The notes under the pieces: model-generated
Told to the model about the DNA's origin: nothing
What the model saw: only the letters and a program-made list of their open reading frames with translations
Database searches by the model: none
DNA from: Demequina sp. NBRC 110057
GTDB taxonomy: Bacteria; Actinomycetota; Actinomycetes; Actinomycetales; Demequinaceae
Reading direction: 5' to 3'
Length of the DNA stretch: 64,000 bases
Assembly: GCF_002090175.1 (NCBI RefSeq)
Contig: NZ_BBRN01000004.1
Span: 124,001 to 188,000, forward strand
Translations under genes and position numbers: made by a program
Part shown: positions 21,769 through 57,833 of the stretch, one piece after another
How the letters are laid out: every line of letters begins with the position of its first letter
Numbering within the stretch: position 1 is the stretch's first letter

Positions 21769-21794
21769 GCCGCGATCCTAGGTCAGGCGCACGC

Positions 21795-21838
21795 ACGGAG
21801 GGCCGATGCGGTGGGTGACCACCGCATCGGCCCTCCGT
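21795..21838. terminator. Terminator built from two inverted motif copies
   Basis: A perfect 20-bp stem (outer arm ACGGAGGGCCGATGCGGT, then GG) closes on a GTGA tetraloop. It lies 11 bp after the arabinanase gene stop (minus strand). Each arm contains one full GGCCGATGC copy, so the dispersed motif and its inverse make up the stem core. This is the arrangement seen for DNA uptake sequences in Neisseria and Haemophilus terminators. Confidence 0.85.
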
Positions 21839-21849
21839 GGAGGGGGAGG

Positions 21850-49737: not shown

Positions 49738-50925
49738 TCACAGGGTGGGGTAGACGGCCTCGGCGCCCTCGGAGTCCTGGTACGGCGAGGCTCCGGTGAC
49801 GTTGTCGCCGCGGTTGGCGTTGGGGCGCGGCTGGCGCGGCTCGGCGTCGCCGTACTTGGCGCGCACGAGGTCCGCGTGGCTCGGCGGGTTGGACGCGACC
49901 TCGGGGTCGCGCCTGGACTCGAGCTCCTTGCGCAGCACCGGGACCACCTCGCCGCCCAGCAGGTCCAGCTGCTCAAGCACCATGTCGGTGGGGAGGCCGG
50001 CGTGGTCGATGAGGAAGAGCTGGCGCTGGTAGTCGCCCACGTACTCGCGGAAGGTCATGATCTTGTCGATGACCTCCTGAACGGAGCCGACGGCGAGCGG
50101 CGTCATCGAGGAGAAGTCCTCGAGCGAGGGGCCGTGGCCGTACACCGGAGCGTTGTCGAAGTAGGGGCGGAAGCGGTCCTTGGCCTCCTGGCTGGTCTTG
50201 CCGATGAAGGTCTGGCCGCCCAGGCCCACGATCGCCTGCTTGGCGGTGCCGTGGCCGTAGTGCTCGAAGCGCTGGCGGTAGAACTGCACCATGCGCTTGG
50301 TGTGCTCCTTGGGCCAGAAGATGTGGTTGGCGAAGAAGCCGTTGCCGTAGTAGGCGGCCTGCTCGGCGATCTCGGGGGTACGGATCGAGCCGTGCCACAC
50401 AAACGGCGCCACGTCGTCGAGGGGGCGGGGTGTCGACGTGAAGCCCTGGAGCGGCGTGCGGAACGAGCCCTCCCAGTCGACGACGTCCTCGCGCCACAGC
50501 CGGTGCAGCAGGTTGTACGCCTCGAGCGCGAGGGGAAGGCCCTGGCGGATGTCCTGGCCAAACCACGGGTACACCGGCGCGGTGTTGCCGCGTCCCAGCA
50601 TGAGGTCCATGCGGCCGCCCGAGAGGTGCTGCAGCATGGCGTACTCCTCGGCGAGACGCACCGGGTCGTTCGTGGTGATGAGCGTGGTGCTTGTCGTGAC
50701 CGTCAGGGTCTCGGTCTGCGCGGCGATGCTGCTCAGCAGGGTCGTGGGGGAGGAGGAGAAGAAGGGCGGGTTGTGGTGCTCGCCCACGGCGACGACGTCG
50801 AGGCCCACCTCCTCGGTCTTCTTGGCGATGCGCACCAGGTCGCGGATGCGCTCGGCCTCGGAGGGGGTGTAGTCGTTGACGGGATCGCGGGTGATGTCCG
50901 AGACGGACATGATGCCGAACTGCAT
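49738..50925 (-). CDS. LLM monooxygenase, FMN-dependent (CE1758-like)
   Basis: The 395-aa luciferase-like enzyme starts at ATG 50925 (AAGGAG upstream); a longer frame to 51051 has no signals and runs through the operator. Landmarks are FGIMSVSDITRDP at the N-terminus, VAVGEHHNPPFFSSSPTTLLSSIA near 45-68 and LMLGRGNTAPVYPWFGQDIRQG near 105. The opening matches the CE1758 family, which works with a CE1759-type reductase. Substrate unknown; long-chain or aromatic oxidation is typical of relatives. Confidence 0.9.
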   Translation of the reverse strand: MQFGIMSVSDITRDPVNDYTPSEAERIRDLVRIAKKTEEVGLDVVAVGEHHNPPFFSSSPTTLLSSIAAQTETLTVTTSTTLITTNDPVRLAEEYAMLQHLSGGRMDLMLGRGNTAPVYPWFGQDIRQGLPLALEAYNLLHRLWREDVVDWEGSFRTPLQGFTSTPRPLDDVAPFVWHGSIRTPEIAEQAAYYGNGFFANHIFWPKEHTKRMVQFYRQRFEHYGHGTAKQAIVGLGGQTFIGKTSQEAKDRFRPYFDNAPVYGHGPSLEDFSSMTPLAVGSVQEVIDKIMTFREYVGDYQRQLFLIDHAGLPTDMVLEQLDLLGGEVVPVLRKELESRRDPEVASNPPSHADLVRAKYGDAEPRQPRPNANRGDNVTGASPYQDSEGAEAVYPTL

Positions 50926-50952
50926 GGTGTGCTCCTTGGTCGAGGCGTGTCG

Positions 50953-50968
50953 TAGGACCTGGGTCCTA
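50953..50968. promoter_or_regulatory. Palindrome TAGGACC-TG-GGTCCTA upstream of LLM operon
   Basis: Perfect seven-bp arms lie 28 bp upstream of the LLM start. A TATATT-like -10 on the minus strand lies immediately upstream of it, so a bound protein would overlap the start point, which suits repression by the operon's own MarR. Its core GGACC-NN-GGTCC is shared with the dyad before cydA. Confidence 0.6.
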
Positions 50969-51116
50969 ATATATGCGTTTGCATCTAATAACGCCAGGGG
51001 GTGCGGATCATTCCCGGCTCCCGCGTCCTCGCGCGCCCCTGTTCCATTCAAGGGGGTAGATGTCGCCCACTTCTGGGACCTGCGGGTGCCTCATGGGGAG
51101 ATCCGGGCTATCCCTG

Positions 51117-51209
51117 GCGTACGAAAGTGACGGTTCTCGGCGGCGACCCGCCGCCGCATCGGCCGTCCGTACCGGCGTGTCGCCCCGCGGGACCGTCGCG
51201 TCGAGACGC
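51117..51209. repeat. 93-bp hairpin repeat, copy 1
   Basis: Aligned without gaps to 51889-51981 it matches at about 71 of 93 positions. Identity is highest in the arms (AAGTGACGGTT and GGCGTGTCGCCC) and lowest in the centre. It can fold as a long interrupted hairpin. The centre contains a GGCCGATGC copy (51156-51164, minus). It ends 14 bp before the -10 of the metallo-hydrolase gene. Confidence 0.75.
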
Positions 51210-51235
51210 GGGCCGCACGGTCGTAGCCTGGCGGA

Positions 51236-51880
51236 GTGATCCTCACCAAGCACACCCACGCCACCATCGAGATCGACGACGCTCACGGCCACCTGCTGGT
51301 GGACCCGGGGACGTACACGCCGAATGCGCCGGAGCTCCTCGCGCGGACCTCCGCGGTCCTGCTCACGCATGGCCACCCGGACCATGCGGATGTGGAGGCG
51401 ATCGGCGCCGCGCTCGCGGCCGACCCCGACCTGCGGGTGTGGGGCCCTCGCGACGCGGTGGCGGGCTGGCTCGAGGCCTATCCCGGGCGCGTGATGGCGG
51501 CCGAGCCCGGCCAGGTCGTCGTTGCCGGCGGCATCGACGTGGAGGTGTTTCCCGCGGCGCACGCCTCGATCCACCCCGACATCTCGCTGCCCGAGCACCT
51601 CGCTTTCATGATCGGCGGGCGCGTGTTCCACCCCGGCGACTCGTACGCTGTGCCCGCCGTGGAGGTCGACATGCTGCTCGTGGGCGTATCGGGGCCGTGG
51701 GCGGTGCTGGCCGATGCCGTCGAGCAGGTGCGTGCCGTCGAGCCGCGCCGTGCCGTGATGATTCACGACACGATGCTGTCCGACGCGGGCCTGGCGGCCA
51801 CTGAGCGGTGGCTCAGCTCGGGAATGCTCTCGCCGGTTGACTTCGAGCGGCTCGCGGTGGGGGAGTCGACCGAGGTCTGA
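51236..51880 (+). CDS. MBL-fold metallo-hydrolase
   Basis: The 214-aa metallo-beta-lactamase-fold protein has the metal motif LTHGHPDHAD near residue 42 (HxHxDH variant HGHPDH), a later His in AAHASIHPD near 103, and FHPGDSY near 132 (metal-bridging Asp). It resembles UlaG-like L-ascorbate-6-phosphate lactonase relatives, substrate not known. GTG start with TAGCCT six bases upstream, leaderless. Both flanks carry a 93-bp repeat, so gene plus repeats form a unit of about 865 bp. Confidence 0.85.
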   Translation: MILTKHTHATIEIDDAHGHLLVDPGTYTPNAPELLARTSAVLLTHGHPDHADVEAIGAALAADPDLRVWGPRDAVAGWLEAYPGRVMAAEPGQVVVAGGIDVEVFPAAHASIHPDISLPEHLAFMIGGRVFHPGDSYAVPAVEVDMLLVGVSGPWAVLADAVEQVRAVEPRRAVMIHDTMLSDAGLAATERWLSSGMLSPVDFERLAVGESTEV

Positions 51881-51888
51881 GCGGCCGC

Positions 51889-51981
51889 GCGTCACGAAGT
51901 GACGGTTGTCTGAGGCGACATGCCGTGACATCGACCCACCAGATCGGCGTGTCGCCCGGCGGAACCGTCGCTTCGTGACGC
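51889..51981. repeat. 93-bp hairpin repeat, copy 2
   Basis: It begins 8 bp after the metallo-hydrolase stop. Outer arms of 19 bp (GCGTCACGAAGTGACGGTT against its inverse with one G-U pair) and inner arms of 12 bp (GGCGACATGCCG, one mismatch) flank a loop of about 19 bases. It probably also serves as the gene's terminator. Same orientation as copy 1. Confidence 0.8.
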
Positions 51982-52036
51982 GGGAGGGCAGGGGTGAGCG
52001 GGTGCCGGGCGCGGGAGGGGCCCCGCCCGCCGGTCC

Positions 52037-53260
52037 CTAGGCCGCCGGCGCCTTGCGCGGCGCCATCACTCCCGCCAGCAGCACCACGAGGATGCCGAAG
52101 AGCGGCACCAGGCTGAGGCCCACCTGCAGCGACGTCTGGTCGGCGATCCATCCCACGAGCGGCGGCGAGGCCAGGAAGGCGAGGCGCAGCAGCCACGACA
52201 GGATCGTGAGGCCCGTCCCCGGACGGAGGCCAGGCAGCTCGTCGGCGGCGTGCATGGCACCGGGGATGAGGGTGGCCACGCCGAAGCCCGCCGCGCCGAA
52301 TCCCACGATGGTGCCCCACGGCGAGGGGAGGGCGAGCGCCAGGCCCATGCCGACGGCGACGAGTGCGCCACCGGCCCTTGCGACGGCGCGCTGGCCCCAG
52401 CGGTCCACCATTCCGTCGCCCAGGATGCGCCCGACGAACTGGCAGCCCTGCATCGCGATGAACGCGAAGGCGGCGAGGCCGGCCCCGGCGAGCAGCTCGT
52501 CCTGCATATAGGACGCCGACCACGTCGAGGCGGCGTCCTCGGCCCAGCCTCCGGCGATCGCGATGACGGTGAGCGCGAGAAGCACGCCCCACGTGCGCGC
52601 GGAGATCTTCCTCAAAGGTGTGTGCTGCGGCACGGCGGACTCGCCCGCGGCGTGGTCGACCTCGTCCGAGGTCGGCGCGTCCTTCTTCAGCAGCATCGGG
52701 TAGGCGACGATGTTCGCCGCCACCACGATGACGAGTGACACGACGAACTGCACCGGGACCGCGTACCCGAGCCCCGCGAAGAGGCCGCCGATGAGGCCTC
52801 CTGTCACGGCGCCGATCGACCACAGCGCGTGGAACGAGTTGAGGATCGACCTCTTGTAAAGCTTCTGCACCTGCAGCCCGTGTGCGTTCTGCGCCACGTC
52901 GACCCACGCATCGGTCACGCCCACCAGGAACAGCGCCGCGCCAAAGAGCCACACGTTGGGGGCCGCGCCCGCCGCGAGCATCGCGGCGGCCGAGACCAGC
53001 ATCGTGAGGGTGGCCACCTTGGCCGAGCCGAAGCGGCGGATCAGCGCCGCCGCAAATAGGCCGAGCGCGAGCGCGCCGATGGACCACATGGCCATCGCCA
53101 CGCCCAGCGTTCCGTACGAGATTCCCAGGTTGGCGCGGATCTCCGGCACGCGCGGCGCGAACCCGCCCAGCACGATGCCGTTGGTGAAGAAGATCAGCGA
53201 CACGCCAAGGCGCGCGCGCCGAAGGTAGGGCGCCACCGTGGAGGTGGGGGACGTGGCCAC
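52037..53260 (-). CDS. MFS transporter coupled to GH3
   Basis: The 407-aa 12-helix permease resembles the YbjJ/FucP-like branch: FFTNGIVLGGFAPRVPEIRANLGI in helix 1, DAWVDVAQNAHGLQVQKLY near 115, SFHALWSIGAVTGGLIGGLFAGLG near 140. GTG 53260 lies 6 bp after the GH3 stop, and its ribosome-binding site (AAGGAG) spans the GH3 stop codon. It probably imports the glycoside that GH3 cleaves (inference). Confidence 0.88.
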   Translation of the reverse strand: MATSPTSTVAPYLRRARLGVSLIFFTNGIVLGGFAPRVPEIRANLGISYGTLGVAMAMWSIGALALGLFAAALIRRFGSAKVATLTMLVSAAAMLAAGAAPNVWLFGAALFLVGVTDAWVDVAQNAHGLQVQKLYKRSILNSFHALWSIGAVTGGLIGGLFAGLGYAVPVQFVVSLVIVVAANIVAYPMLLKKDAPTSDEVDHAAGESAVPQHTPLRKISARTWGVLLALTVIAIAGGWAEDAASTWSASYMQDELLAGAGLAAFAFIAMQGCQFVGRILGDGMVDRWGQRAVARAGGALVAVGMGLALALPSPWGTIVGFGAAGFGVATLIPGAMHAADELPGLRPGTGLTILSWLLRLAFLASPPLVGWIADQTSLQVGLSLVPLFGILVVLLAGVMAPRKAPAA

Positions 53261-56384: not shown

Positions 56385-56966
56385 ATGTCCACCACACCCG
56401 TTCCCACCTCGAGCGAGGTCGAGGGGCCGGTCGGCTCCAAGACCGGCTGGGTCTTCCTGTCGATCACCCGCATCGTGATCGGCTTCTACTTCTTCTGGGC
56501 CTTCATTGACAAGCTGTTTGGCCTGGGCTTCTCCACCTGTCGCGCCGAGGACGGCTCCGTCGAGGTCATGTGTGACCGCGCCTGGCTGTCCGGCGCGCGC
56601 ATCACCGAGGGCTACCTCGGCTCCTCTTCCGGCCCGTTCGCCGACTTCTTCGCGAGCCTCGGTGAGCAGGCGTGGACAGACTGGCCGTTCATGCTCGGCC
56701 TGTGCGGCATCGGCCTCGCGCTCATGCTTGGCATCGGCACGCGCGTGGGCATGTGGTCCGGCTGCATCATGCTCGCCATGATGTGGATCTCGCACTCCTG
56801 GCCCGGCGAGGGTGGTAACACCACCAACCCCTTCGTTGACGACCACATCATCATGATCGTCGCGATCATCGGCGTCGTCCTCGTCGAGCTGCGCTACCAG
56901 GCGGTCGGCCTCGGCCCCTGGTGGAGGAGCCTCGACGTGGTCCAGAAGCAGCGCTGGCTGATCTGA
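56385..56966 (+). CDS. DoxX-like membrane protein, copy 1
   Basis: The 193-aa integral membrane protein has four helices: about 22-45 (GWVFLSITRIVIGFYFFWAF), 100-120, 125-145 and 160-182. It has the DoxX-like FIDKLFGLGF after helix 1. A loop with two cysteines (STCRAEDGSVEVMCDRAW, residues 51-63) is unusual for the family and could form a disulfide on the outer face. ATG 56385 has AAGGAG upstream. DoxX relatives are linked to thiol or sulphur redox; function here is unknown. Followed by a terminator and by a second copy. Confidence 0.85.
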   Translation: MSTTPVPTSSEVEGPVGSKTGWVFLSITRIVIGFYFFWAFIDKLFGLGFSTCRAEDGSVEVMCDRAWLSGARITEGYLGSSSGPFADFFASLGEQAWTDWPFMLGLCGIGLALMLGIGTRVGMWSGCIMLAMMWISHSWPGEGGNTTNPFVDDHIIMIVAIIGVVLVELRYQAVGLGPWWRSLDVVQKQRWLI

Positions 56967-57254: not shown

Positions 57255-57833
57255 ATGGCGACCGCAAGCACCGACGTGACCACCCCGCAGGGTCCCGTCG
57301 GCTCCAAGACCGGCTGGGTTTTCCTCTCGATCACCCGCATCACGATCGGCTTCTACTTCTTCTGGGCCTTCATCGACAAGCTGTTCGGCCTTGGCTTCTC
57401 GACCTGCCGCCTCGAGGACGGCTCGGTGCAGGTGCTGTGCGACAACGCCTGGCTGTCCGGCTCGCGCATCACCGAGGGCTACCTCGGCTCCTCGTCCGGC
57501 CCGCTGGCTGACTTCTTCGCCACCCTCGGTGGCTACGCCTGGACCGACTGGGCCTTCATGATCGGCCTGTGCGGCATCGGCCTCGCGCTGATCCTGGGCA
57601 TCGGCACCCGCATCGGCATGTGGTCGGGCGTCGCGATGCTCGCCATGATGTGGGTCTCCCACGCCTGGCCCGGCGCCGGTGGCAACACCACCAACCCCTT
57701 CGTCGACGACCACATCATCATGATCGTCGCGATCATCGGCATCGTCCTGGTCGAGCTGCGCTACCAGGCCGTGGGCCTCGGTGGCTGGTGGAGGCGCCTG
57801 GACATCGTCCAGAAGCAGCCCTGGCTGATCTAA
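57255..57833 (+). CDS. DoxX-like membrane protein, copy 2
   Basis: The 192-aa product is about 85% identical to copy 1 by eye; both share the cysteine loop (STCRLEDGSVQVLCDNAW), the GYLGSSSGP segment and GNTTNPFVDDHIIMIVAI before the last helix. Differences cluster in the first 12 residues and near residue 88. ATG 57255 has AAGGAG upstream. Together the copies form a recent tandem duplication with separate promoters. Confidence 0.85.
   Translation: MATASTDVTTPQGPVGSKTGWVFLSITRITIGFYFFWAFIDKLFGLGFSTCRLEDGSVQVLCDNAWLSGSRITEGYLGSSSGPLADFFATLGGYAWTDWAFMIGLCGIGLALILGIGTRIGMWSGVAMLAMMWVSHAWPGAGGNTTNPFVDDHIIMIVAIIGIVLVELRYQAVGLGGWWRRLDIVQKQPWLI

Follow-up and report, generated by a model that had tools for sequence, protein, structure and literature searches.

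Palindromes dispersed between genes are commonly classed as REPs or terminators, and MITEs, ERIC- and Correia-type repeats are intergenic imperfect palindromes of about 90-130 bp. A REP is a self-palindromic unit of 20-40 bp that carries a GTAG or CGTC tag. For REPs, the passages of one report that deal with placement and structure describe a location mainly between genes that converge or share a direction, near stop codons, termini that can provide stop codons, and spacers of similar length and different sequence; in the same passages CGTC REPs have a stem of 8-9 bp and a loop of 4-5 nt, and are described as having no transposase of their own (PMC3733652). A short site of another kind is the GACAC core of WhiA, which the binding-site passages of two reports describe as asymmetric, used in either orientation and bound by a monomer (PMC3781837, PMC4850268).

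The stretch of DNA that we analysed (the window, 64,000 nt from Demequina sp. NBRC 110057) carries two repeats around a single gene (Table 1). An earlier note on this DNA had described them as repeats of the same length that match ungapped at about 71 of 93 positions, and we find exactly 71 of 93 identical positions in register, a number that falls to 20-21 when one copy is shifted by one base. A repeat search scores their likeness at 80% over 88 nt, and BLAST with copy 1 as the query against the genome recovers copy 2 with an E value of 2e-14. Chance origin is ruled out by this value together with the family of 37 elements described below. We also rejected the idea that the two are recent duplicates, as the identity of their linkers and centre is 0.60, against an average of 0.56 among distant pairs of elements. 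Between copy 1 and the GTG start of the gene, which was taken from a codon-usage gene caller, lie 26 bp, and between the stop codon and copy 2 lie 8 bp, just as the earlier note had stated. Copy 2 is also the strong hairpin described there, with a predicted fold of -60.8 kcal/mol (z -7.8); the predicted fold of copy 1 is weaker (-51.4, z -3.2). Pfam assigns the genes around the copies to a luciferase-like (LLM) oxidoreductase, a metallo-beta-lactamase-fold protein and an MFS protein. Elsewhere in the window, positions 56422-56721 and 57289-57588 form a 300-nt direct repeat (88% identity, 867 bp apart) that resembles a gene duplication.

Table 1 Features of the two repeat copies and the gene between them (window coordinates)
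Feature	Position	Strand	Remarks
Copy 1, subfamily f1	51117..51209	+	LLM-oxidoreductase and metallo-hydrolase genes diverge from either side
Copy 1 left outer arm, CGTACGAAAGTGACGGT	51118..51134	+	alignment A2
Copy 1 left inner motif, CGACCCGCCG, 1 mismatch to CGACACGCCG	51144..51153	+	
Copy 1 centre, genome-wide iterated 9-mer GCATCGGCC	51156..51164	+	
Copy 1 right inner motif, CGGCGTGTCG	51173..51182	+	
Copy 1 right outer arm	51192..51208	+	
Metallo-beta-lactamase-fold gene between the copies	51236..51880	+	Lactamase_B_3, E 2.4e-13
Copy 2, subfamily f1	51889..51981	+	between convergent gene ends; exact 9-mer absent
Copy 2 left outer arm, CGTCACGAAGTGACGGT	51890..51906	+	
Copy 2 left inner motif, CGACATGCCG, 1 mismatch	51916..51925	+	
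Copy 2 right inner motif, CGGCGTGTCG	51945..51954	+	
Copy 2 right outer arm	51964..51980	+	

Covariance models were built for two subfamilies (R1 for f1, R2 for f2), and matches with E 1e-3 or better were taken as elements. The genome of the window (G000, 2.73 Mb) contains at least 37 of them, 15 f1 and 22 f2, so the repeats belong to a dispersed family, as the earlier note had suspected. The layout is constant and consists of an outer arm, a linker of 8-9 bp, the inner motif CGACACGCCG, a centre and then the mirror image. The consensus of the outer arm is approximately CGTSACRAAGTGACGGT in f1 and CACTNTGAACCRGT in f2, and the elements end in terminal inverted repeats, as is characteristic of MITEs. 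Elements of f1 are 89-91 bp long with a centre of about 18-19 bp and those of f2 103-104 bp with a centre of 28 bp; the two centre lengths thus lie about one helical turn apart. Greater conservation of the arms than of the centre, first noticed on the two window copies, holds for the outer arms throughout the family. A third family of dyads, f3, about 102-108 bp in length, was observed in G000 at C5:423641-423746, C5:424733-424840 (L254) and around C5:393400 (L252), and in a relative, G041, at C1:940803-940905 and 969883-969984 (L259, L260). At one orthologous place, the outer arms differ between G000 and G041 and are altered on both sides. A further hairpin at G000 C5:486039-486105 (L257) has perfect arms of 25 nt, is AT-richer and is unlike the dyad families.

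With gene contexts taken from the codon-usage gene caller, the 37 elements fall into 16 convergent, 15 tandem and 6 divergent regions, so that 31 of them have the convergent or co-directional placement described for REPs. Convergent contexts are enriched compared with the gene pairs of the window (7 convergent, 45 tandem and 8 divergent, n=60; 16/37 versus 7/60, Fisher p 0.0006). By subfamily, f2 is found in 11 convergent, 9 tandem and 2 divergent regions, and f1, with 5, 6 and 4, shows little bias. Elements of relatives for which a context was available are distributed in the same order (26, 21 and 6, n=53), and setting aside the six whose overlap with a called gene exceeds 30 bp leaves 23, 18 and 6 (n=47). 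A homologue of the hydrolase between the window copies is present in 22 of 44 genus genomes, our own included. None of the 21 other hydrolase loci (about 3.6 kb each) contains an inverted inner dyad with up to three mismatches, in a scan that is blind to direct-orientation or decayed elements, and because of this the bracketing of the gene by two elements looks incidental. The LLM gene adjoins the hydrolase homologue in 14 of these 21 loci, and in G039, where no hydrolase homologue was found, an f1 element lies upstream of the LLM gene, in the position of copy 1. The earlier note had also considered a boundary that insulates the gene; a general boundary role may survive from this proposal, but nothing singles out the insulation of this gene.

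At E 1e-6, R2 matched 35 of 119 genomes, our own included and every match inside the genus, and was absent from 9 of the 44 genus genomes. R1 matched 8 of the 119 at the same threshold, again including our own; two of these genomes lie in a different family of the order, and the R1 matches listed for three genus genomes are 99 nt long and f2-like. The exact inner-dyad pattern was found in 13 of 394 genomes of the class, five of which, spanning three families, have at least three inner dyads each, and eight a single one, a number that chance could give. In a dyad scan of named contigs, the matches listed (80 of at least 118 stretches) are rich in Demequina and in Microbacteriaceae, including Microbacterium, Leifsonia, Planctomonas, Amnibacterium and others, and also come from unrelated taxa such as Bradyrhizobium, Sphingomonas and Mycobacterium. 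Judged by eye, the outer inverted repeats of these named-contig matches differ between genera and species; the constancy of their inner motif is built into the search pattern. Six stretches with the exact inner dyad lie in viral contigs, matched on the inner dyad alone, and a viral source was rejected. Rfam gave no match for window positions 50900-52100 at E up to 1, and we found no open-access paper that, by its title and the start of its abstract, treats the repeat or the motif.

The inner motif also occurs as direct pairs throughout the genus. The 44 genus genomes hold 131 direct pairs of GGCGTGTCG at gaps of 6-30, compared with 3 matches for the reversed control pattern, and 57 of them are spaced at 15-16 bp, 16 at 20-22, 45 at 30-32 and 13 elsewhere. 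The three loci with a span of 40-41 bp that we examined (L283, L284, L286) all have mirrored outer arms. A pair at 15-16 bp is present in 42 of the 44 genomes, among them 8 of the 9 with no R2 match, and several genomes have more than one. All eight examined loci of this spacing (L276-L282, L285) adjoin a dnaB-like gene. Seven lie between this gene and rplI, and the contig of the eighth ends short of rplI; DnaB and L9 were assigned by Pfam for L276 and by likeness for the other seven. At the eight loci the pair, 15 bp apart, is situated among TGTGGA/TTATCCACA strings, which we take to be DnaA-box-like.

No other 9-mer in the window is as over-represented as the one in the centre of copy 1, GCATCGGCC (reverse GGCCGATGC), with 49 occurrences versus 4.8 expected. 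The genome contains 2018 copies, about 18-fold more than the reversed-pattern control (60 + 50), equally on both strands (1004 + 1014) and more densely outside genes. Ala-Asp-Ala is coded 16 times as GCCGATGCC and 6 times as GCCGACGCC, though GAT is nine times rarer than GAC, and thus the 9-mer overrides codon preference. It is present in 16 of the 37 elements, where 2.5 would be expected by genome density and about 6 by the noncoding density of the window (9 in 5.1 kb), and where present it lies at offset 37-38 in f1 and at 49 or 39 in f2. Genus genomes hold from 68 to 2018 copies. All nine that have no R2 match contain the 9-mer, some in hundreds of copies, and its link to the elements is therefore partial. 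Lineage variants are known from k-mer counts only: in Microbacterium loci GGATGCC is enriched instead (436 versus 85), and it is found in 10 of 36 Microbacterium centres, nine times at offset 5-6. C-to-T conversion as the source was rejected, since GGACGCC stands at 98 versus 94 expected in Microbacterium; in contrast to this rejection, GGCCGACGC is below expectation in the window (3 versus 8.3). A Chi-like strand bias was rejected as well, with an over-dispersion of 21.7 over 30 Microbacterium loci and the equal strand counts of the genome. At window positions 21788-21845 an inverted pair of the 9-mer forms a hairpin between two minus-strand genes. Similar inverted-pair hairpins are the uptake-sequence terminators of Neisseria.

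The elements are drawn most readily as hairpins, but pairing is not the conserved feature; the hairpin simply follows from the mirror symmetry of the motifs. Pairing amounts to 76.1% in alignment A2 and 75.3% in alignment A3, compared with 76.4% and 77.0% when the 3' letters are shuffled among elements. Over all 37 elements, outer arms pair equally well within an element and between elements (f1, 0.867 versus 0.868, p 0.64; f2, 0.727 versus 0.724, p 0.43), and the same is true of the linkers (0.39 versus 0.42 and 0.47 versus 0.46). By these controls no compensatory change was detected within the elements of our own genome. In addition, the two inner motifs stand in direct orientation in 6 of the 37 elements, 22 bp apart in f1 (4/4) and 30-31 bp apart in f2 (2/2). 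Together, the missing compensation and the direct pairs indicate that the hairpin is not what is selected. In one orthologous pair (G016/G030) an outer arm is altered on both sides, a change that base pairing would likewise predict. It is consequently improbable, in our judgement, that the elements work as RNA, whether as bidirectional intrinsic terminators or as stabilisers of mRNA 3' ends. Such a function would agree with the preference for convergent gene pairs and with the strong folds of L016 (z -8.2), L030 (z -5.8) and copy 2, but it is at odds with the direct inner motifs, with linkers that pair no better within than between elements, with the six elements in divergent regions and with the lack of a T run after the stem of either window copy, as judged by eye. 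Still less probable is a regulon in which the elements serve one or a few transcription factors as ordinary operators, for example as WhiA-type sites on GACAC. The inner motif does hold GACAC, which in Streptomyces is the asymmetric site bound by a WhiA monomer (PMC3781837), and direct pairs of the motif lie beside dnaB; however, the target-site passages of the WhiA work show no further over-represented sequence with GACAC, whereas ten bases are conserved here, 31 of the 37 elements are outside divergent regions, and we saw no common function among the neighbouring genes, judged by their first residues. We treat the likeness to WhiA sites as a lead only, as the longer conserved motif is not explained by the WhiA data.

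In a block collinear between G000 and G041, a genome listed at 50% completeness, five of the eight G000 f2 sites are common to both. Of the other three, one has f3 instead in G041, one has kept f3 only and one is without any element there. Within the five sites in common, 14 of 200 conserved positions (7%) and 90 of 320 other element positions (28%) differ (Fisher 1e-9), a contrast that is somewhat inflated because the conserved positions were defined on the G000 copies and are required by the model that located the G041 sites, which misses decayed sites for the same reason; the flanks differ at 277 of 616 positions, gaps counted. The lower change at conserved positions suggests that selection acts on single sites, as would not be expected of a decaying mobile copy. 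Two large indels between G000 and G041, of 4.9 and 13.7 kb (G000 C5:413526-418448 and C5:472529-486224; L253, L254, L256, L257), each have one end near an f2 element, unlike further indels of that block. Linkers and centres were compared between same-genome, same-subfamily pairs from 58 elements, our own 37 and 21 from four relatives, some of the latter picked for lying close together. Four near pairs in the same orientation, 229-321 bp apart, have an identity of 0.86-0.91, and two further near pairs, 772 and 989 bp apart, have 0.60 and 0.73; among the 372 distant pairs of the five genomes the identity has a mean of 0.56 and a maximum of 0.74, and none are recent dispersed near-identical copies. 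As only near pairs have like linkers, the duplication that we detect is local. Thus the non-autonomous mobile repeat of the earlier note stands as far as dispersal is concerned and is weakened as to mobility, the linkers being alike in four pairs less than 350 bp apart and in 0 of 372 distant ones. The REP-associated tyrosine (Y1) transposase that goes with GTAG-type REPs, and for which the note proposed to look, was found in none of the 44 genus genomes by a search that was positive in 5 of 14 control genomes, and we reject a RAYT-driven REP. The missing Y1 enzyme does not speak against kinship of a CGTC type, because such REPs are said, in the passages cited above, to have no dedicated transposase (PMC3733652). 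Moreover, a 6-bp self-palindrome or near self-palindrome is present in 14 of the 30 outer arms of f1 (the left arm of copy 2 perfect, 13 with one mismatch), which makes a mobile repeat slightly more and a protein site slightly less probable, and f1 may be kin to REPs more broadly. Overall we regard it as rather unlikely that the family is a REPIN-, CGTC-REP- or MITE-like non-autonomous repeat, moved by an enzyme that reads outer and inner blocks and seen at gene ends through selection against harmful insertions. Dispersed copies with terminal inverted repeats, a lineage-specific presence that includes the dyad-free hydrolase loci, and an arm that provides the called stop codon of the upstream gene at G000 C5:472426 all fit this explanation, as does a local pair 229 bp apart that is 93% alike and whose likeness stops at the element, with unrelated flanks; in another local pair the likeness continues into the flank. 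The absence of Y1, the low identity of distant copies and the blocks held at orthologous sites speak against it, as does the fact that no target-site duplication was recognised by eye at a few presence/absence sites.

We favour, at just short of an even chance, the reading that the elements are dispersed intergenic multi-site landmarks, putatively protein-bound and perhaps boundary elements at gene ends. The fixed spacing, the conservation of sequence and not of pairing, the inner motif in either orientation and the conserved blocks at orthologous sites together point to composite protein-binding sites. The blocks would be bound by proteins. A conserved factor may recognise CGACACGCCG whichever way it points, at preferred spacings, while the outer arms may be read by at least one further factor whose specificity would drift between lineages, giving 'dialects'. 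Drift of an outer-arm factor would change both arms in step, as in the f3 copies of G000 and G041, two in each genome. From the position at gene ends we infer, with less certainty, a boundary role at transcript ends: the complex would act mainly there, as a roadblock or terminator or as an architectural anchor between convergent transcription units. A role at 3' ends leaves the 6 of 37 divergent elements, copy 1 included, unexplained. It is a more speculative and unlikely extension that these are parts of an undescribed landmark system of Actinomycetes, in which dozens of phased four-site putative nucleoprotein anchors at gene ends, with a conserved inner-motif factor also acting beside dnaB, a lineage-specific arm partner and a centre that docks the 9-mer, would tie transcription boundaries to replication or chromosome folding. 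The family combines a repeat-like dispersal with an anatomy and an orthologous conservation that point to DNA-protein recognition and single-site selection. Its drifting outer arms and steady inner motif make it a natural setting in which to follow how binding sites and their factors co-evolve, and both the iterated 9-mer and the inner motif next to dnaB are handles for finding these factors.

Compared with known systems, the inner motif contains the GACAC string of WhiA sites but is longer and is set in spaced pairs inside a dyad, a likeness of sequence alone. The 9-mer resembles DNA uptake sequences and HIP1 in being short, over-represented, equal on both strands and denser outside genes; unlike them it is known here from sequence counts alone, and it may serve Actinomycetes as a signal of the uptake or HIP1 type. 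With MITEs, ERIC- and Correia-type repeats the elements share an intergenic position and the form of imperfect palindromes of about 90-130 bp, and they differ in their free linkers of fixed length, in outer arms that vary by species around a steady inner motif and in the absence of recent dispersed copies among the pairs compared. The elements also resemble REP, REPIN and BIME sequences as described in the passages cited above, which are likewise dispersed, have the same placement at gene ends and can have spacers alike in length but not in sequence; some f1 arms are also short near-palindromes, and 3 of 30 start with CGTC. The palindrome of an f1 arm would have a 6-bp stem and a 3-nt loop, unlike the stem and loop given there for CGTC REPs. 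Also unlike REPs, none of the 44 f2 arms is self-palindromic or forms a 6-bp self-hairpin, all 44 genus genomes are free of Y1, and the inner motif is used in either orientation. The distribution of the family is therefore REP-like and its anatomy is different, clearly so for f2 and less clearly for f1.
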